Shown here piece by piece: positions 20,978 to 30,178 of a DNA stretch of 64,000 bases (the first letter of the stretch is position 1; each line of letters begins with the position of its first letter). The notes beneath the pieces were generated by a model. The model made no database searches and was not told the DNA's origin. It saw only the letters and a list, made by a program, of their open reading frames with translations. The stretch spans positions 318,995 through 382,994 of the forward strand of contig PEZS01000011.1 in assembly GCA_002778785.1 (NCBI GenBank), in the 5' to 3' direction. A program made the translations under genes and the position numbers. Source of the stretch: Bdellovibrionales bacterium CG10_big_fil_rev_8_21_14_0_10_45_34 (GTDB lineage Bacteria > Bdellovibrionota > Bdellovibrionia > Bdellovibrionales > 1-14-0-10-45-34).

Positions 20978-22708
20978 ATGAACTGGATCGCCGCAAAGAA
21001 ACTCTACCCCTACATAATCCCTTATAGGCGTCAGTTTTTTTTCGCCATTTTTATAGGACTATTGTTTGCCCTGACGAGCGGACTTCCGGCCGTTCTCGGA
21101 AAGTATCTTATCGATGATGGCTTTGTAAAAAAGAACATCTCGCTACTCACCTGGTCGTGTGTTGCGATTGTGGTCCTTTATATAATCAACGGATTCTTTA
21201 GGTACATTCACTACTATTTGCTCATATTTTACGGCGAAAAGGTTTGCGCTGATATACAGATAGCCTTACAGCAAAAATTCATGGACTTGAGCTTGGCTTA
21301 CCATAGTGAGAATGATTCTGGAGCAAATTTATCTAAGGTGATAAATGATGTGAACAACATCAAGGTCGGGCTTTTAATGGTTGCAGACATTTTGCGTGAG
21401 CCATTTACTGCCATCGCTCTACTAGGGTGGATTATTTACCTCGACTGGAAGCTCACCCTTCTAGTGATTGTCTTAGCGCCTATACTAGCACTGACTCTCA
21501 AGCAATTCGGCAAAAGCATTCGAAAATACTCTCACCAGCAGCAAGAGACTTTAGAGAACCTCACCTCGACTTTTAAGGAAACTTTAGATGGAGTGCGGAT
21601 TATTCAAGGGTACAATTTGCAGCAGCATATGAAGCAACGGCTTATGAGGGTTGTAGATAATTACCTTACGTCTCGCAGAAAGATTATCACTCGACAAGAA
21701 AGCGCTGGGCCCGTTTCTGACTGGCTAGGCGCAATCGCTTTTACGATAGCGGCCTTTTATATTGGCGTTCAAATCATCGAAGATAAATCAACTTTAGGTA
21801 ATTTTGTCTCATTTATAGCAGCCCTTGGCATTTTGCAGAAGCCCGTCAAAAAAGTCCAAGATGCTTATGTTCGCCTTCAACCTTCTTTCGTTGCCGCCGA
21901 GAGGATACTGCGAGTTTTAGAAAACCCACAGGTTGTTACGGACAAGCCAGCCTCGCGAGCGTTCAACCGCAACTTCAATAATATATCATTTAAAGACATT
22001 AGCTTTAGGTATCCCCATGCATCTTCTGATTCTCTCAGCAACATTAACCTCGACGTCAACAGAGGCGAAGTCATTGCTTTTGTGGGCACCAGCGGAAGCG
22101 GCAAGTCGACTCTTGTCAATTTGCTCGCAAGGTTTATGGATCCCACCTCAGGTTGCATTTTTGTTGATGGTGTCGATATTCGAGAGTTTCGACTAAAAGA
22201 TCTTCGCTCCAACGTGGCACTCGTCACCCAAGATGTATTCTTGTTTAACGATACTATTGCTGAAAACATTCGAGCCGGATCACCAGTCAGCGTTGAAAAA
22301 ACAATTCAGGCAGCGGAGCTTGCCAATGCCAATAAGTTTATCGAAGCCAAGCCGAACAAGTTCGAGTCCACGGTAGGCGAAAGAGGCAGCTCTCTTTCAG
22401 GTGGAGAAAAGCAACGAGTCAGTATCGCAAGAGCAATCTATAAGGACGCCCCCATACTCATCCTTGATGAGGCGACAAGCGCCCTAGATAGTGCCAGCGA
22501 AGTTGAAGTTCAGAAGGGCCTTGATGAACTCATGCATGGGCGCACGACTTTTGTAATCGCACATCGGCTCAGCACAGTCATGAGAGCTGATCGAATACTT
22601 GTGATGGAACATGGTAAAATCATCGAATCGGGAACTCACCGAGAGCTTATCCAGATGGGCGGAAAGTACTCAGAGCTTGAAAGCCTTCAGCTAAGGTCGT
22701 TCGACTAA
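20978..22708 (+). CDS. MsbA-type ABC exporter (fused membrane and ATPase domains)
   Basis: A 576-residue half-transporter. The N-terminal six-helix membrane domain (about residues 15-310) is followed by an ATPase domain with Walker A GTSGSGKST at about 370, Q-loop TQDVFLFN, signature LSGGEKQR, Walker B ILILDEATSALD and the switch histidine in IAHRLS. Length and arrangement match MsbA/lipid A flippases and related multidrug exporters, working as a homodimer in the inner membrane. MsbA itself is plausible but not certain because no lpxK or other lipid A gene lies next to it. It is 76 bp after uvrA. Confidence 0.85.
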   Translation: MNWIAAKKLYPYIIPYRRQFFFAIFIGLLFALTSGLPAVLGKYLIDDGFVKKNISLLTWSCVAIVVLYIINGFFRYIHYYLLIFYGEKVCADIQIALQQKFMDLSLAYHSENDSGANLSKVINDVNNIKVGLLMVADILREPFTAIALLGWIIYLDWKLTLLVIVLAPILALTLKQFGKSIRKYSHQQQETLENLTSTFKETLDGVRIIQGYNLQQHMKQRLMRVVDNYLTSRRKIITRQESAGPVSDWLGAIAFTIAAFYIGVQIIEDKSTLGNFVSFIAALGILQKPVKKVQDAYVRLQPSFVAAERILRVLENPQVVTDKPASRAFNRNFNNISFKDISFRYPHASSDSLSNINLDVNRGEVIAFVGTSGSGKSTLVNLLARFMDPTSGCIFVDGVDIREFRLKDLRSNVALVTQDVFLFNDTIAENIRAGSPVSVEKTIQAAELANANKFIEAKPNKFESTVGERGSSLSGGEKQRVSIARAIYKDAPILILDEATSALDSASEVEVQKGLDELMHGRTTFVIAHRLSTVMRADRILVMEHGKIIESGTHRELIQMGGKYSELESLQLRSFD

Positions 22709-22811
22709 AGAATTGGCTGGGATCTAAATCCTTTCGTGCGGAACGTGAAGATTTTGGCAACAGCCCTCAATGCCCAAATCGCTTCTCGACCTAAGGCCGA
22801 GTAATCAACTT

Positions 22812-22869
22812 TTAGACAGTTTTAGTGTCAACTTGTTCAAACATTTGACGATAAGAACTTAGACAGTTT
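22812..22869. repeat. Pair of 11-bp direct repeats upstream of the sigma-54 activator
   Basis: The sequence TTAGACAGTTT occurs exactly at 22812-22822 and 22859-22869, 47 bp apart, within the 195-bp gap upstream of the activator gene. TTGACG at 22845-22850 could be a -35 element but no good -10 follows at the usual distance. The repeats could be binding sites for a regulator of the activator gene. Confidence 0.5.
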
Positions 22870-22904
22870 GTAGGAATACTTGTCATTTTTAGGGGGATCG
22901 TCAA

Positions 22905-24458
22905 ATGATCAATTGGGATGATTTTGAACATATACATGTGATCAGAAAGCTCAAAGAAATTCTGAGGACGTGGTGGAATATAGAGGTCGTGTTCACCGAC
23001 GAACGCGGACATCTTCGAGGCCTTGAAAAAGACAAAGCCAAGTTTCAAAATTTAGCAGTTAAGGCGATTCTAGAAAAACCGGCATCTCACGAATCTCTCG
23101 CTGTTGAAGTCTCGAAAATGGTCGATGATCTTCGCCAGACGGGAAATCGCTACTCTGTTCGAAAATGGGAGTCAGCTGGCTTCGATGTTGCTCTATTCCC
23201 GATCGTTATTGACGGCGACTTTATAGGAAGCGTTGTCGCTCTTGGATTTTTCAGAGACCCAAGCGAAGTTAATCGCCTGGCTCAGTTGCGAGAAAGGCTA
23301 GCGGCCTTTGGCACTCCACTAGATGTTATAGAAAGGGCGATCCCAGCGATCAAAGCTCTCCATGAAGATCAAAAACAACACTTTGTTGACATTGTCGATC
23401 TCGTTGCAAAAGAAGTTGTCACACTACATTTAGAAATCACAACTAGAGAAGACCGTATCACTGAACTAAACAAAGAGCTTGGCAGTCGCTACAAGTACGA
23501 CAACATGATCGGCAAGTCTAAGCCTATGCAAGACTTGTATGCACTTCTAGACAAAATTAAGGTCGCAGAATCTACTGTGATGATCCAAGGTGAAAACGGA
23601 ACTGGTAAAGAATTAATTGCCAAAGCTATTCATTACAATTCCTCACGAAAAGACAAAGCTTTTGTGATTCAAAACTGTTCCGCATTTAACGACAACCTTT
23701 TGGAGAGTGAACTTTTTGGTCACGCCAAGGGATCCTTCACAGGGGCTATCAAGGATAAAAAAGGATTGTTTGAGATTGCCGACAAAGGCACCTTCTTCTT
23801 AGACGAGATTGGTGACACATCCCCGTCAATGCAGGTTAAACTTCTTCGCGTTCTGCAAGAAGGAACTTTTACGCCGGTAGGCAGTACGGAGCCGCGCAAG
23901 GTTGATGTTCGAATTATCGCAGCGACTAACCGCGATCTCAAAGATATGGTTGAAAAGGGAACGTTTAGAGAAGATTTGTACTATCGTTTAAACGTTATCA
24001 ATATCCGCGTCCCGCCACTCAGAGAAAGAAAAGAAGACATACCTCTTCTCATCGATTACTTTCTAGAAAAGGCTCGTGAAGACGGGCATGGCCGCAAAAT
24101 TGTAACTAAGCGTGCTTTAGAAAAGCTTTATGATTATGCATGGCAGGGTAACGTTCGTGAACTACAGAACGAGATGGAAAGACTAGTCGTTCTTTCTGGG
24201 CAAGAAGACAAAATCACAGCCGATATGCTTTCTAGTCGAATCTTAGAGTCTTCTGAAAAAGGCAAGGTTCAGGGCGCGCGCTTGCAAGGCAAGTTAAAAG
24301 ACGCTCTTGAAGAGCTTGAGAGAGAGATGATTCGAGAGGGTTTGCGCAGGACAGGATGGAACAAGTCAAAGCTTGCAAAAGAACTAGGAATCTCACGAGC
24401 GGGCCTCATAATGAAAGTCGAGAAATACGGACTGGATAAACGAAAAATGCTGCGTTAG
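22905..24458 (+). CDS. Sigma-54-dependent transcriptional activator (Fis-type HTH)
   Basis: A 517-residue enhancer-binding protein. The N-terminal 180 residues form a sensory region without a receiver aspartate pattern; it may be a PocR-like or GAF-like ligand domain (low confidence). A short coiled coil (about 180-195) leads to the AAA+ domain with Walker A GENGTGKE (229-236), the sigma-54 contact loop GSFTGA (276-281; an accepted variant of GAFTGA), Walker B FFLDEIGD and the arginine-finger region REDLYYRLNV. The C-terminal HTH (about 470-510) is Fis-like. It has an AGGGGG ribosome site. A terminator follows it, then a sigma-54 promoter in front of the next gene, which this protein is the obvious candidate to activate. 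Confidence 0.92.
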   Translation: MINWDDFEHIHVIRKLKEILRTWWNIEVVFTDERGHLRGLEKDKAKFQNLAVKAILEKPASHESLAVEVSKMVDDLRQTGNRYSVRKWESAGFDVALFPIVIDGDFIGSVVALGFFRDPSEVNRLAQLRERLAAFGTPLDVIERAIPAIKALHEDQKQHFVDIVDLVAKEVVTLHLEITTREDRITELNKELGSRYKYDNMIGKSKPMQDLYALLDKIKVAESTVMIQGENGTGKELIAKAIHYNSSRKDKAFVIQNCSAFNDNLLESELFGHAKGSFTGAIKDKKGLFEIADKGTFFLDEIGDTSPSMQVKLLRVLQEGTFTPVGSTEPRKVDVRIIAATNRDLKDMVEKGTFREDLYYRLNVINIRVPPLRERKEDIPLLIDYFLEKAREDGHGRKIVTKRALEKLYDYAWQGNVRELQNEMERLVVLSGQEDKITADMLSSRILESSEKGKVQGARLQGKLKDALEELEREMIREGLRRTGWNKSKLAKELGISRAGLIMKVEKYGLDKRKMLR

Positions 24459-24466
24459 TGTTTTTC

Positions 24467-24497
24467 AAAAGCAGAAACTAATTTCGTTTCCGCTTTT
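24467..24497 (+). terminator. Intrinsic terminator after the sigma-54 activator gene
   Basis: A 12-bp stem (AAAAGCAGAAAC paired with GTTTCCGCTTTT, one mismatch) with a 7-nt loop begins eight bases after the stop codon. The descending arm ends in TTTTC. The A-rich and T-rich flanks fit a rho-independent terminator. Confidence 0.7.
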
Positions 24498-24787
24498 CTC
24501 GAATCCCCACGATTTCACGCATTACGAGCTTTCAGTTTCGCTCATGGTTTGAAGGCCTGGAGTGTACGAACTACACCATTTGAAAACGAGTTCGTCGAAA
24601 ATATAGTCGCCGCCTCATGCTGAATTTCCTACTTTTTGATGTCCAACGAATAGCCACTCTGAAAAAGATTCCAGCCGCCTAAAAATATCCGCAAAAATCA
24701 GGTACTTAGGTGCCCCCTGTCGGTAGGTCCACTATGGGATAATTCTTTCCATTACAGTGTAATTTCTTTTTAAACGAAACTGCTTTT
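24498..24787. other. Non-coding leader region before the sigma-54 promoter
   Basis: No gene seen between the terminator and the sigma-54 promoter. The only clear symmetric site is ATTACA-G-TGTAAT at 24751-24763. It ends 26 bp upstream of the promoter and is listed separately as a possible activator-binding site. Confidence 0.5.
24751..24763. promoter_or_regulatory. Inverted repeat, possible enhancer site for the sigma-54 activator
   Basis: ATTACA and TGTAAT form a 6-1-6 dyad centred at about position -58 relative to the predicted start site. Fis-type HTH activators bind short dyads like this. Sigma-54 enhancers usually lie farther upstream (80-150 bp), so this is only a candidate. Confidence 0.35.
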
Positions 24788-24804
24788 GTGGCACGTGCCT
24801 TGCC
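24788..24804 (+). promoter_or_regulatory. Sigma-54 (-24/-12) promoter
   Basis: TGGCACGTGCCTTGCC matches the consensus TGGCAC-N5-TTGC with the invariant GG (24790-24791) and GC (24802-24803) exactly 10 bases apart. Transcription should start near 24815, giving a leader of about 14 bases with a CCGGAGG ribosome site at 24816-24822 before the ATG at 24829. This is a very strong match. Confidence 0.92.
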
Positions 24805-24828
24805 TTATGCTCATACCGGAGGCACAAC

Positions 24829-25692
24829 ATGTCCATTAAGCAAAACGTATTTCAGCTAATTAGTCACATCATGAGTCAGCATCAGGTCGAAGTCGATTTC
24901 ATCGATATGAGTGTTACTGACCACTCAGAGCCGATTCAAAAGATTATCGATTCCGTAGCACGCAATCAACTCGCCCGATTTTTAATTATAGGCAATGACT
25001 TGATAATCCCTTGCGCCAAAAAAGGCGAGCTTATTGGTATTGCCCGTGTACACGATGGCGCAAATTTGGACAATCTTTTCACTAAGCGAATTCAAGCAAT
25101 GCTCCAGTTTGCCTGCGACTCTGCGGATTTGTTCGATAAAGCTGACTATGAGTTTACGACAATTCGTGAACTAAATCCTAATGAAGACTGCGAAGAAGAG
25201 GACCTAGACGAGCTCACTGTTTCTGCGACCTCTGCTATTCTGCTTGAAGCTCACGATCTCGAAAAGGCTCGCCGGTTTGCTATAGATATGCATCAAAACT
25301 CCAAGCGTATAGCTTTTTTACCGCTTGCTGACCTTTCAATTTCTTCAGAAAGCGGCGCCGAAGAGCTCAGAAAGCTTGGTAATATCACACTCTTCATTTC
25401 AGATCTTGAGTCTCTTAGCGTTGATATTCAAAACTCACTTTTGACTCTTCTTTCTGATGATTTAAATAACCTTGAAGATCCGGTGATTATAGCCGCAACA
25501 GCAAAGCCTGTGGCGGAGCTGATGCATTCTGGGAAGGTTGATAAAGAGCTCATTGAGCTGCTATCACAATCGCGCATTCAACTATTGAACGTGATAGTAA
25601 ATCAAAACTGGAAGCAACCCCTTGCAGTGATGGCTAGGGAGTTCACGCCAGCTCCGAACTTACACATAGTCGAAACAAAGACGATTCACTGA
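24829..25692 (+). CDS. Degenerate sigma-54-activator-like protein without ATPase motifs
   Basis: This 287-residue protein is not a recognised family at first sight, but its second half lines up with the AAA+ core of the activator upstream. GNITLFISDLESLSVDIQNS corresponds to GTFFLDEIGDTSPSMQVKLL, and VIIAATAKPVAELMHSGKVD to RIIAATNRDLKDMVEKGTFR. Walker A is lost (an AHDLEKAR-like stretch replaces GENGTGKE), Walker B lacks the DE pair, and the whole GAFTGA loop is missing; there is no C-terminal HTH. The N-terminal about 110 residues look like a small sensor domain. It should therefore not hydrolyse ATP or bind DNA. It is expressed from the sigma-54 promoter and has a strong ribosome site. It could form mixed rings with, or titrate, the active protein. 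That is inference. Confidence 0.65.
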   Translation: MSIKQNVFQLISHIMSQHQVEVDFIDMSVTDHSEPIQKIIDSVARNQLARFLIIGNDLIIPCAKKGELIGIARVHDGANLDNLFTKRIQAMLQFACDSADLFDKADYEFTTIRELNPNEDCEEEDLDELTVSATSAILLEAHDLEKARRFAIDMHQNSKRIAFLPLADLSISSESGAEELRKLGNITLFISDLESLSVDIQNSLLTLLSDDLNNLEDPVIIAATAKPVAELMHSGKVDKELIELLSQSRIQLLNVIVNQNWKQPLAVMAREFTPAPNLHIVETKTIH

Positions 25693-25756
25693 TTAGCTGA
25701 ATCGGTCATTCTTTTAACCGTTTGCCAACTCTACCTAGTTCTGCGAACCTTTTAAT

Positions 25757-26803
25757 ATGGTTGCGTTAGATCCAGTAGAGCTCAGGTTAGAGCCTTACTT
25801 TTCCTTTTTAATGTCGAGTCTCAAAAGCGACGGATTTGAGGTGTACCCCTTAGCAGGCGACGCCTCAGCCCGTCGTTATTATCGAGTGGTGCACGGCGAA
25901 GAATCGAGCGTTCTCATGCGTTGGGAGCCGTTTGAAAACAACAAAGACTATCCGTTTTTAAGCGTTCTTAACCATTTTCAGCGTAATGATGTTCAGGTTC
26001 CTGACGTTATCGCACTCGATCCTCAGGGCGGCTATATATTGCTCGAGGATCTTGGAGATCTCACGCTGGAAAGAAAGTATTGGGAGAGTCAAAACAAAGA
26101 CTCGGCTCTGGGTTTTTATCGCAAGGCAATCGATGAGTTAATTAAAATTCATTACACAGCCACAAACGACAAGAGTGATTGCACCGCCTTTGAGACGACA
26201 TTTGATACCTCTAAATTTCTTTGGGAAATGAACTACGCCTTCCAACACCTGCTTCAAACCATGTTGGGTATTAAGTTTGATGAAGCAGAATCTGGCCGCC
26301 TTCAGACTGAGTTTCATCAAAATTGCAAGCGCCTATCCGAGGAGCCGCGGGTCATATGTCACCGCGACTATCACTCCCGAAATCTCATGATCAAACTTGG
26401 TAAAATGCGGGTGATAGATTTTCAAGACGCGCGAATGGGCCCCATTTACTACGACCTAGTTAGTCTTTTAAGAGACTCCTATGTAGACTTGACCGATGAT
26501 TATGCGCAGTCTTTGATCGATTATTACCTTGTTAACAGACAAGAGCAAAAAGCACCTGCTATTTCTAAAGACGAATTCAGTGAACTATTTGAGATTCAAA
26601 CCGTCCAAAGAAGTTTTAAAGCCTGCGGTAGTTTTGCCAGCTTCTTTAACTCACGCGGCGATAAGCGATATTTGAAGTATCTTAGTCCAACTCTCAGAAA
26701 AGTTTATCTGGCTTGCCAAAGAACTCGTAGCAGCCCGTTTCTGGCTAAAATCATCAATGACAATGGCTTACTTGAGAGAGATTTGGAATCTGAGTTCTCC
26801 TAA
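25757..26803 (+). CDS. amgK: AmgK-like sugar kinase (aminoglycoside-phosphotransferase fold)
   Basis: A 348-residue kinase of the APH fold. N-terminal beta-sheet lysine-region is seen in RRYYRVVHGEESSVLMRW. The catalytic loop is in HRDYHSRNLM (about residues 200-210) and the metal-binding aspartate in IDFQDARMGPIYYDL, a combination typical of AmgK. AmgK phosphorylates MurNAc (and GlcNAc) at the anomeric position in peptidoglycan recycling. The next gene is a nucleotidyltransferase of the MurU type with start and stop overlapping (TAATG), the same pairing as in Pseudomonas. The gene starts 65 bp after the pseudo-activator gene and could be read from the same sigma-54 promoter. Confidence 0.8.
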   Translation: MVALDPVELRLEPYFSFLMSSLKSDGFEVYPLAGDASARRYYRVVHGEESSVLMRWEPFENNKDYPFLSVLNHFQRNDVQVPDVIALDPQGGYILLEDLGDLTLERKYWESQNKDSALGFYRKAIDELIKIHYTATNDKSDCTAFETTFDTSKFLWEMNYAFQHLLQTMLGIKFDEAESGRLQTEFHQNCKRLSEEPRVICHRDYHSRNLMIKLGKMRVIDFQDARMGPIYYDLVSLLRDSYVDLTDDYAQSLIDYYLVNRQEQKAPAISKDEFSELFEIQTVQRSFKACGSFASFFNSRGDKRYLKYLSPTLRKVYLACQRTRSSPFLAKIINDNGLLERDLESEFS

Positions 26804-27963
26804 TGGTTGTTTTTTTACTAACCGCCGGACACGGCACAAGGCTTCGTCCGTTAACAAATTTTTTAGCTAAGCCGACGCTGCCTTTTCTCGGCGCTCCGAT
26901 TGCCATCCATGCACTCAATCCGCTAAGAAGTTTAGACGTCACCGAAATTGTCTTTAACACCCACCACCTGCCGGATACCGTGCGCAATTGCATAACCAAC
27001 GAAAGCCTCCGTCGCGCTTTTAAAGGATGTTCGCTTGAGAGAAGCAAAATTCATCTGTCTAGCGAATATGACCAGATTTTAGGAGGGGGAGCCATTAAGA
27101 AAGCCGAAAGCCTACTTTCAGCACACGAAAACTTTTGGCTCGTCAACGGAGACGTCGTTTACCTTCCAAACCCACAGACTCTTGGCCGTGCTTGGCAGGA
27201 ACACTGCCGCTCTGGCGCAATGGCTACCTTAATCGTCTTAAAGGACGAGCGAGTGGGTAAGCAGTTCGGAGGTGTTTGGTGTAAAGGTAAAGGCGTTATG
27301 AAGTTTTCTAAAAAATCTGTGCCTGGCACCGATGGATATCATTTCACCGGCTTTATGATTTTGAGTCGTGAGGTGCTTGCACATATTCCGCCGGAGAAAG
27401 AGATTAACTTACTTTACGATACCCTTCAAAAACAGATAGATACGGCGACCACTTCAAAAGGGCCGTTTCCGGTGAGAGCCTTTGTTGATGATGGATATTG
27501 GTTCGAAACCGGCAATTGGCCGGACTACCTAGCTTCGCAATCCCGTGTAATTTCTTTACTTGAAGGGGGGCCAACAAATCCCCATTTAAAAGATCTCAAA
27601 GAGCTTTTGACCAACTGGCATAGGCCTTATGGCTACCAATTGAAAGCTGGGCCTGAAGGGACTCTTTTTTCGAATGCCGCCGCCTCATCTGCTTCTGCGG
27701 CCAAAACTAAGTTTTCAGGTTGCTCTGTACTAAACTTCCGTCCGGAATTAGAACTACCTAAAAAGATGAGAGATTGCATGGTGGATTCTTTAGACTGGTT
27801 GCACGACAATGAAGTGAGGGCGCGAATCCCAGACGTTATAGAAATGGCACCCGGCCAAACCCCGATTGGCGCTACGTCCAGCAACCATCACCTCAAAACC
27901 CGGGAACTTGCTGGCCTTAAGGAGATTACAGATGCTTTTGTCTTCGTTGAATCGGCTGACTAG
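26803..27963 (+). CDS. murU: MurU-like sugar-1-phosphate nucleotidyltransferase
   Basis: A GT-A-fold nucleotidyltransferase. The N-terminal signature TAGHGTRLRPLT (residues 7-18) and AKPTLPF (22-28) are those of NTP:sugar-1-phosphate transferases, and the metal-binding NGDV motif follows. MurU makes UDP-MurNAc from MurNAc-1-phosphate and UTP, completing the bypass that also gives fosfomycin tolerance. The length, 386 residues, is well over the roughly 225 of Pseudomonas MurU; the extra C-terminal region (about residues 240-386) has no family I recognise and contains alanine/serine-rich sequence. ATG 26803 overlaps the kinase stop. It is about as sure as the pairing with AmgK suggests. Confidence 0.7.
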   Translation: MVVFLLTAGHGTRLRPLTNFLAKPTLPFLGAPIAIHALNPLRSLDVTEIVFNTHHLPDTVRNCITNESLRRAFKGCSLERSKIHLSSEYDQILGGGAIKKAESLLSAHENFWLVNGDVVYLPNPQTLGRAWQEHCRSGAMATLIVLKDERVGKQFGGVWCKGKGVMKFSKKSVPGTDGYHFTGFMILSREVLAHIPPEKEINLLYDTLQKQIDTATTSKGPFPVRAFVDDGYWFETGNWPDYLASQSRVISLLEGGPTNPHLKDLKELLTNWHRPYGYQLKAGPEGTLFSNAAASSASAAKTKFSGCSVLNFRPELELPKKMRDCMVDSLDWLHDNEVRARIPDVIEMAPGQTPIGATSSNHHLKTRELAGLKEITDAFVFVESAD

Positions 27964-30178
27964 TTTAACTCGGTTAAAACAGTTACCTCAGTCGATTGAG
28001 GCAGTGCCGAACGTTTTGCTGAAATTAGCTCGAATCACTGGTGGATTTGCTTTAACCATTGCTTCTATTGCAATTCTCGCTTCGTGCAGCAGCTTACGAA
28101 GTGATCGGCTTTCTTTTGTTGAAACCGATGAAGAGAGTGCTCTTAAAGAAGCAGATTCTCAAGTTGTTAGCCGTGAATTGACGGAGTCGCCCAGCAATAT
28201 GTCTTTAAACGCAAGAAATCCGTCAAGCAAACTCTCAGAACAAGCTACGGGTCTCGATCAAAATGATTCCGCTAACGATAAAAATAATTCGCTTACGGAT
28301 CAAAGTAATTCCGCTAACGATCAAAGTATTTCGCTTTCGCATTCGAACGACTCTACTACAACAATGAGTGACCCCATAGCTGCAACTAAAGATGAGGCTA
28401 GAGTAATCCGCGGACTCAATACTGCGACTGTGATGATTTTGGACCGTTGGTATCAAGAGCTCTCTAACAGAAAATACGATGTCGGAGCGTTGGCGCAATC
28501 AAGGAAAATTGTTGTTCAAAGCAAAGATGCCCTACGTTTACCTATAACGTCCAATCTTCCTGTAGAAAGTATTATCGCAGAAGCTGTCCACAGGTCTTTA
28601 TCTCTAGCGACTCTTACAGAAATGGCATCAGCGCTTGTCAATGAAAGAGAGCGCATTCGTCATCTAAAGACTCAAGCATCGCTCGCTCAAGAGAAGAAGC
28701 GCCAGATTTTGTGGGCACTTCAGATTATGCTAGAAGAGCTACTCTATGTAGTTCATCAAAGGCATTCCGTCACTGACTTGAAGACCTTCGTATTTGCTAG
28801 CGAACTTCTAGGCAAATCAGCCTATGCCGGTAACAACTCAAATTCTATCGCTGCAACTGCCACCAGTTCCGCTGCAGGATCTGATTCCGAAAAAAACCCC
28901 AACTCAGAGCCTTCCAAAGGACAATTATCATCGGTGGCCCAATGTGATCCTAAATTTCTATTGACCTATCAAAGCGTAGAAGTTTGCTCCGGTGATATTC
29001 TTGCATCTAAAGGCAGTGCACCTAGTAGCACGTTGATTTCTTCAATGGGGCAGATTCCTTCGGCATTCTCACATTCGACGGTTTCATTTTTGCCGAGTGA
29101 CTCTAAACAGGCGGCCTATGTTGTTGAGGCGCTTATTGAAGATGGCGTAAAGATACGAGTTCTTGAAAACTATGGCAAAGAAAGTAAAAAACTATCAGTG
29201 TTTCGAATGACGGGGCAGGCGCAAGATGCACACATCGATACGGCGGCTGTCGCAGTCGCGCTATTGGATCGGTACGAGAGCCTAGCCAACGCAATTGCGT
29301 CACCAACTGCCGATTCGCCTTACTCTTCATCAGAACAGCCTGTAGCTAACTATGATTTTAGGATGGACCCACTTAATTCAGATAGATATTTTTGCAGTGA
29401 GGTTTCTTACGAAATTTATACAAAGGCTTTCGAAAACTCTGAGTTTGCCAATGACTACAACCCTTATGGAAGGCCTTATTGGAGCCAGATTTCCGGCGAC
29501 GCTATAGTTTTCTTTGAATCAGTTTTTGGTATAGAGCAGTCTTCTTTACCTGCGCCAGGAGACGTTGAGCTGAATCCTTACTTTGATTTGATGAGCGCTA
29601 GCTATGCACTCGACAAACTTGCAGAGGATCGCATAGATGCGGCTCTAGTAGATGCTCTTTACAAAGAGATTTCTAATCCTCAGTCGGGTTGGCCCGAATT
29701 CTTTGTGACAATCAGCGAAAGATGGAACACCACGGCCACAAAAGACCAGATTCAAGAAGTATTTCACGATCTGCTCACTCATCAAGGCTCTCGGAATGCC
29801 TTGCGAGAAGTTCTTGATAGAAAGAATGCCTTGCAGCCACTCGAAAATGCCGGTGATGGTAACATCGACTCCGAGCAGTCTCTTGCATTCTTAAAGAGTA
29901 AATTTAATGAAGCCGTCGCCAAGTTGCCAGAAGAGATGACTTTAAAGCAAGTCGTCGCGTTTGCTTTAATTAATGAAGTTATTATTTCAAAGCTCAAATC
30001 ACACTTTTTAGAAAACTCAGAATTGGCTCGGACCGCCTGCGGCGGCCAAGACTGTAAAACACTTGGGCGCGGAGAGCTTTTTAAAGCCGTCTACCCCGTT
30101 TTAAAGGCAAAGCTCACGCCACTTCGCGAAGGCCTTATTAGCACAATCACCCCGTCGGCCAAAAGCGTTTCGAACTAG
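27932..30178 (+). CDS. Lipoprotein with permuted papain-like (YiiX/NlpC-type) peptidase domain
   Basis: About 748 residues. ATG 27932 has AAGGAG seven bases upstream and overlaps the murU end by 32 bp. A hydrophobic segment ends in the lipobox ILASC (about residue 52), a longer leader than usual. Next is a low-complexity Asn/Ser/Asp stretch with four heptapeptide repeats, then a helical part. The central part has the permuted papain pattern of the YiiX/YaeF family: a GDIL turn, the histidine in FSHSTVSF, VVEALIEDGV, and the nucleophile cysteine in FCSEVSYEIY. These proteins are amidases or peptidases. With AmgK/MurU just upstream this suggests wall or lipoprotein turnover, which is inference. 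The last about 230 residues are helical and unassigned. Confidence 0.7.
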   Translation: MLLSSLNRLTSLTRLKQLPQSIEAVPNVLLKLARITGGFALTIASIAILASCSSLRSDRLSFVETDEESALKEADSQVVSRELTESPSNMSLNARNPSSKLSEQATGLDQNDSANDKNNSLTDQSNSANDQSISLSHSNDSTTTMSDPIAATKDEARVIRGLNTATVMILDRWYQELSNRKYDVGALAQSRKIVVQSKDALRLPITSNLPVESIIAEAVHRSLSLATLTEMASALVNERERIRHLKTQASLAQEKKRQILWALQIMLEELLYVVHQRHSVTDLKTFVFASELLGKSAYAGNNSNSIAATATSSAAGSDSEKNPNSEPSKGQLSSVAQCDPKFLLTYQSVEVCSGDILASKGSAPSSTLISSMGQIPSAFSHSTVSFLPSDSKQAAYVVEALIEDGVKIRVLENYGKESKKLSVFRMTGQAQDAHIDTAAVAVALLDRYESLANAIASPTADSPYSSSEQPVANYDFRMDPLNSDRYFCSEVSYEIYTKAFENSEFANDYNPYGRPYWSQISGDAIVFFESVFGIEQSSLPAPGDVELNPYFDLMSASYALDKLAEDRIDAALVDALYKEISNPQSGWPEFFVTISERWNTTATKDQIQEVFHDLLTHQGSRNALREVLDRKNALQPLENAGDGNIDSEQSLAFLKSKFNEAVAKLPEEMTLKQVVAFALINEVIISKLKSHFLENSELARTACGGQDCKTLGRGELFKAVYPVLKAKLTPLREGLISTITPSAKSVSN
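28256..28339 (+). repeat. Four tandem 21-bp units within the lipoprotein gene
   Basis: Units at 28256-28276, 28277-28297, 28298-28318 and 28319-28339 are alike and encode DQNDSAN, DKNNSLT, DQSNSAN and DQSISLS. They form a flexible, polar linker after the lipid anchor. Since each unit is 21 bp, unit gain or loss would keep the frame. Confidence 0.9.

Follow-up and report, generated by a model that had tools for sequence, protein, structure and literature searches.

A degenerate relative of a sigma54 activator, conserved beside it and behind a sigma54-type promoter site in Bdellovibrionales, as a candidate feedback partner

Locus organization

We examined a 64,000-nucleotide (nt) stretch of the genome of Bdellovibrionales bacterium CG10_big_fil_rev_8_21_14_0_10_45_34 (contig PEZS01000011.1, forward-strand positions 318,995 to 382,994), referred to here as the window. 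In it, the gene for a complete sigma54 activator, or enhancer-binding protein (EBP), is followed by a sigma54-type -24/-12 promoter site and by the gene for a degenerate relative of the activator, which we call the pseudo-EBP (Table 1). The gene position directly downstream of the conserved activator is termed the slot; f-labels denote families and L-labels denote loci. The 370 bp between the activator stop and the pseudo-EBP open reading frame (ORF), as given in a first-pass annotation of this DNA, were confirmed. The promoter site ends 24 bp before the pseudo-EBP ATG, and from its position a transcript start would be expected near 24815.

Table 1. Features of the activator/pseudo-EBP locus (window coordinates; HTH, helix-turn-helix; aa, amino acids; pLDDT, predicted local distance difference test)
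Feature	Position	Strand	Basis
Complete EBP (activator), 517 aa	22905..24458	+	Pfam PF00158 E 5.8e-71, AAA_lid_14, HTH_8
Sigma54-type -24/-12 promoter site TGGCACGTGCCTTGCC	24789..24804	+	Sequence match; equivalents at orthologous slots
GGAGG, probable ribosome-binding site	24818..24822	+	Sequence
Degenerate activator (pseudo-EBP), 287 aa, without lid or HTH	24829..25692	+	Pfam, profiles, predicted structure
Pseudo-EBP N-terminal domain, residues 1-132 (helix, strands, long helix)	24829..25224	+	Model m3682eef8d3a8
Pseudo-EBP degenerate AAA+ core, residues 133-254	25225..25590	+	pLDDT mostly 74-95 in blocks 131-250
amgK-like kinase (N-acetylmuramic acid/N-acetylglucosamine recycling)	25757..26803	+	NCBIfam NF045759 E 2e-42, under family cut-off
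murU-like nucleotidyltransferase, overlaps amgK end	26803..27963	+	NCBIfam NF045761 E 1e-18, under family cut-off

The activator possesses an N-terminal domain, an AAA+ core with the motifs GENGTGKE (Walker A), GSFTGA, FFLDEI and FREDLYYRL, a lid and a Fis-type HTH. At E<=1e-150 it was detected in 310 of the phylum's 368 genomes, with listed identities of 58-78%, and its motifs were intact in nearly all orthologues examined. Measured against the window protein across the order, identity was 87% for the AAA core and 92% for the HTH region. It was also noted that the activator of genus g20 (L047, L057, L069, L076 and L089) carries GAYTGS in place of GSFTGA and the recognition helix RANLIDK in place of RAGLIMK.

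A degenerate AAA+ core of the sigma54 activator branch

The pseudo-EBP had been aligned by eye with the AAA+ core of the activator, and this relationship was borne out by several profile methods. Its C-terminal half matched Pfam PF14532 (Sigma54_activ_2) at E 8.7e-8, above the curated cut-off, and the same family was matched by 40 of 54 pseudo-EBP orthologues. Profile-profile comparison of the pseudo-EBP family with the neighboring activator gave E 3.7e-7, and a second alignment of core against activator (hhalign) scored 58.6 (E 2.2e-7), compared with E 0.17 for a reversed-column control. Plain BLASTP between the two window proteins was not significant (E 0.34); the homology is detectable by profile methods and not by single-sequence comparison, and the alignment by eye was correct though insecure. 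Searches of PDB sequences followed the same pattern, with only chance matches for the single pseudo-EBP and NtrC1 at E 7.7e-4 for the family profile.

An AlphaFold2 model of the window pseudo-EBP (mean pLDDT 71) was then compared with the PDB, where an unrelated fold would have spoken against the annotation. Sigma54 activators ranked first, with VIA-align Z scores of 11-13 over 117-135 residues, and the top matches comprised 4bs1_B (NtrC family), FleQ, DmpR, LuxO, VpsR and NtrC1. RuvB and clamp loaders scored just one to two Z units lower, so that structure alone establishes the AAA+ fold, and it is the sequence profiles that assign the protein to the sigma54 branch. A model of the orthologue from Bdellovibrio bacteriovorus kdesi returned the same fold result.

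The motif losses reported from the window sequence were found to extend across the family. Walker A, Walker B, the sensor I Asn and both arginine fingers were unconserved across 61 family members, the GAFTGA segment is deleted, and there is no conserved Arg at the equivalent of FREDLYYRL. The protein stops after the AAA core, with the lid absent and no Pfam HTH match. Thus, the pseudo-EBP has the fold of a bacterial EBP and lacks four features of the functional definition of a sigma54 activator (Walker A/B, GAFTGA, arginine fingers and HTH), and on its sequence it is predicted to be unable to hydrolyze ATP or to contact sigma54. A C-terminal '-xH' ending was considered as a motif and is not claimed, as it was found in just 10 of 61 proteins.

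A conserved sigma54-type promoter site

The site TGGCACGTGCCTTGCC differs from the consensus TGGCACGNNNNTTGCW at a single position, the last base, and was the top match within the window, in agreement with the near-perfect promoter that had been annotated there. Allowing at most one mismatch, the sigma54 pattern was encountered at 23 places in the window's own genome and the reversed pattern at 13; taken by itself, the match score is moderate evidence and weakly suggests a promoter. A GG[CT]A[CT]-N5-TTG site was located 5' of 52 of 59 slot (pseudo-EBP) orthologues. The same pattern was found 5' of 0/53 activator, 0/61 amgK, 2/61 murU and 0/43 msbA genes, and a shuffled 360-nt region yields such a site in 2% of trials. 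It is this conservation at orthologous slots, and not the match score, that identifies the promoter site as real. The uvrA gene also showed matches (12 of 25 genes), all of them one conserved GGTATnGTnTTTGC string at about -158, and these were dismissed because the string apparently lies within upstream coding sequence.

The genome carries one rpoN gene, with its RpoN box ARRTVAKYR intact, and about 13 complete sigma54 activators. In most of the genus having the most genomes, the -12 element reads TTGTA and not TTGCA, which perhaps makes a weaker promoter. It was noted that the window itself has TTGCC here, and that most orthologues of genus g4, like many others, have TTGTA and thereby deviate from the usual TTGC. 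A further observation concerned genus g20, where in four of five loci 106-120 bp separate the slot promoter from the start. Palindrome searches of 46 slots returned terminator-, coding- or AT-rich signals only, and none was taken as an activator site.

Conservation and selection within the order

Queried with the single protein, 107 of the order's 140 genomes yielded a pseudo-EBP homologue. In all but a few of the 60 loci examined, the gene sits between this activator and amgK-murU, and most of these loci share the order uvrA-msbA-activator-pseudo-EBP-amgK-murU. A scan of genome collections found nothing with the single protein, and an alignment query recovered 12 named loci, including that of B. 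bacteriovorus strain kdesi.

The two neighbors differ greatly in their rates of divergence. Overall identity across the order was 20-25% for the pseudo-EBP against about 73% for the activator, and by domain the pseudo-EBP averaged about 14% in the N-domain and about 23% in the core against 54-92% for the activator. Omega values of 0.009-0.091 in eight close pairs demonstrate strong purifying selection on the pseudo-EBP, so that its low identity reflects fast yet constrained evolution. The reading frame is intact in almost all genomes. The pseudo-EBP is a conserved gene under selection and no stray pseudogene.

The amgK gene is on the same strand in 60 of 60 loci, the gap before it ranges from -25 to 145 bp in 59 loci, and amgK and murU overlap by 4 bp in most loci. 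Because of this short gap and the usual overlap, the three genes appear to form one operon, in which amgK and murU are probably co-transcribed with the pseudo-EBP gene. An Rfam scan of positions 22700-26000 gave zero matches. Beyond this region, the ORF at 27866-30178 contains a low-complexity stretch rich in Asn, Ser and Asp (NDKNNSLTDQSNSANDQSISLSHSNDS).

The slot in other lineages of the phylum

In other families, the slot holds other remnants behind similar sites. Some consist of AAA+, lid and HTH without GAFTGA, one is a full-length form, and some are limited to the N-domain. In families f15, f16, f18 and f19 (eight loci), the slot gene again has a sigma54-type site, and its products of about 300-390 aa retain the lid and HTH, with the GAFTGA segment missing in 8/8. 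The N-domain is absent from the slot proteins of f15, f16 and f18, which consist of AAA+, lid and HTH instead. At L175 and L180 the site is downstream of the mechanical ORF start, which places the true start further down. The proteins of the eight loci scored 82-156 bits against the activator family and no more than 79 bits against any other activator of the window genome, a difference that identifies them as paralogues of the adjacent activator, and their HTH resembles that of the neighbor (e.g., NKSKVSRELGISRSGLIQKVEKY compared with NKSKLAKELGISRAGLIMKVEKY). Only the HTH-bearing slot relatives can be assigned clearly to this particular activator as paralogues.

The pseudo-EBP core of the order (order-type) aligned with the HTH-bearing relatives at an hhalign score of 70.5 (E 2.4e-9), compared with its 58.6 against the activator. 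At L181, an order-type N-domain (E 2e-8; best shuffled decoy 0.69) is carried on an AAA+, lid and HTH protein, and this mix of domains links the two slot forms. In f10 and f11, the slot encodes the N-domain alone (134-143 aa) behind a sigma54-type site, and three such N-only proteins matched the order-type N-domain profile at E 1e-19 to 2e-15. As informal controls, no site was found at L151, where an N-only gene lies away from the activator, or at L157, where the gene is inverted. In f14, f26, f27 and f29, the members examined yielded no slot relative.

The genes after the slot vary by class, comprising amgK-murU, an M48 peptidase followed by amgK-murU, a carboxyl transferase, or DUF1385. It follows that the conserved unit is the activator, the site and the degenerate relative.

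Other small activator relatives were noted away from the slot. In Bdellovibrio and another genus of its family, a second type of 280-286 aa (L155:5234-6076 in G003 and L165:6711-7571 in G064) has an intact Walker A, no GAFTGA, and a lid with an HTH-like C-terminus. In other classes, AAA+ activator-like proteins of 266-278 aa without GAFTGA (L159:6940-7740 and L160:6737-7573) do not adjoin the activator.

A proposed feedback module and its alternatives

We propose, at a probability of roughly one half, that the pair is a self-contained feedback module in which the pseudo-EBP is the sigma54-driven partner of the adjacent activator and most likely its brake. The activator with RpoN would turn on transcription from the 24789-24804 site, giving first a catalytically dead relative of the activator and then amgK and murU. 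This relative would most likely pair with the activator through AAA core surfaces or through the N-terminal domain with its long helix, and in other classes the HTH may offer a further pairing surface. As its level rises, the output of the activator would be lowered or re-tuned. Beyond the observed promoter site, core ancestry, motif losses, conserved pairing and selection, we infer three points: activation of the slot site by this activator, binding between the two proteins, and a negative net effect.

The activator is the expected target because each lineage has kept some fragment of an activator, and the fragments differ while the neighbor is unchanged. A brake is suggested because all sigma54-energizing parts have been lost while the DNA-binding domain is retained in some lineages. 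Likewise, a competitor or partner role would be expected from the other-class slots, which hold activator paralogues with lid and HTH and without GAFTGA. The first-pass annotation had proposed that a defective relative could form dead mixed hexamers as a possible negative-feedback brake. The sigma54-type promoter site, the activator-derived core stripped of its catalytic and sigma54-contact parts, and a selected pairing with one particular activator are supported; the dead mixed hexamers cannot be the general mechanism given the N-only forms of f10 and f11. The hexamer model fits the forms with an AAA core, and contact through the N-domain and long helix would fit the N-only forms. More tentatively, and with the balance slightly against it, the module may extend to the phylum, as a conserved activator permanently paired with its own degenerating paralogue, whose lineage-specific fragments would all be dominant-negative or retuning partners.

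Several results weigh against the feedback module. Many genomes of other classes carry the activator without a slot partner, which shows that the partner is dispensable for activator function. The stretch from the activator gene to the -24/-12 site yielded no conserved upstream activator site. The N-domains of pseudo-EBP and activator did not match significantly (hhalign probability 15%, E 0.0018; hmmsearch E 0.46), and the N-only forms exclude AAA-AAA contact as the sole mechanism in f10 and f11.

The main rival is a specificity switch, by virtue of the closest known parallel, FleQ/FleT of Rhodobacter (Cereibacter) sphaeroides. There, FleT is expressed from a FleQ/RpoN2 promoter, has no DNA-binding domain and forms a hetero-oligomer with FleQ, and the pair acts as a switch between promoter classes (PMC11999139, PMC7277832, PMC11655674). 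By analogy, the slot relative would alter the promoter choice or DNA binding of the activator in an ordered two-step program. The gene layout here matches FleQ/FleT, and co-dependent paralogous activators are known in Azotobacter (PMC9542535), but the family-wide loss of every catalytic motif means that the pseudo-EBP cannot supply ATPase subunits, and N-only forms occur; we regard a switch as unlikely, at somewhat better than one chance in five. Rather less likely is a signal-side regulator whose N-domain binds or sequesters the ligand or upstream partner of the activator, with the AAA relic as a scaffold outside the hexamers. The retention of the N-domain alone behind the same type of site in f10 and f11 would suit such a role, as would a divergence much faster than that of the activator, as for a sensing part; the slot proteins of f15, f16 and f18, having AAA+, lid and HTH and no N-domain, mean that ligand sensing by this domain cannot be the shared function.

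Two further explanations concern the gene apart from the activator. Its nearly constant position directly upstream of amgK-murU in the order could suggest a local regulator or accessory factor of this peptidoglycan-recycling operon that is not directly related to the activator. We consider this improbable, given that in other classes the slot gene stays beside the activator and it is the downstream genes that vary. A functionless, decaying duplicate might be expected from the loss of all catalytic motifs and the low identity between genera. It is contradicted by the selection on the gene (omega of 0.01-0.09 in the eight pairs) and is hard to reconcile with the conserved promoter and position and a frame intact almost everywhere, and we give it next to no weight.

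Comparison with known systems

GAFTGA-deficient EBP homologues, including TyrR, DhaR, HupR, VpsR and YplP, are known as stand-alone DNA-binding regulators (PMC3162934), and the slot proteins resemble them in having EBP architecture without a working sigma54-contact motif. The window protein, by contrast, lacks an HTH. Those slot relatives that carry one lie beside their complete cognate activator, are derived from it and stand behind a sigma54-type site. HrpR/HrpS and VnfA1/VnfA3 are paralogous, co-dependent activators in hetero-oligomers, an arrangement described as rare (PMC9542535), whereas here one partner is catalytically dead as judged from its motifs. In CerM/CerN of Cereibacter (LuxR family), an HTH-less paralogue antagonizes a DNA-binding regulator (PMC11655674), but that protein family is unrelated and sigma54 is not involved. 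In the open-access literature we found no dedicated, catalytically dead EBP partner behind a sigma54-type promoter and kept across classes of a predatory phylum, though an earlier description is possible elsewhere.

The rpoN gene of Bdellovibrio (bd0843) has been noted yet little studied in the literature found (PMC3464611). If the proposed interaction is true, this activator, with a DNA-binding helix that is near-invariant across the order, would give a workable starting point for studying sigma54 control in Bdellovibrio, and the natural series of fragments would show which activator surfaces suffice for control in trans.

FleQ and FleT (PMC11999139) demonstrate that hetero-oligomers of this kind exist. 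As in that system, the gene of a relative without a DNA-binding domain lies behind a sigma54-type promoter, here known from sequence, with a complete activator as its likely driver; the pseudo-EBP shares with FleT a predicted sigma54 promoter and homology to the activator (in its core). FleT differs in that it is described as a second sigma54 activator, co-activating class III flagellar genes. The pseudo-EBP, in contrast, has no ATP sites, GAFTGA, lid or HTH and possesses a separate N-domain, and its pairing with the activator spans several classes of one phylum.
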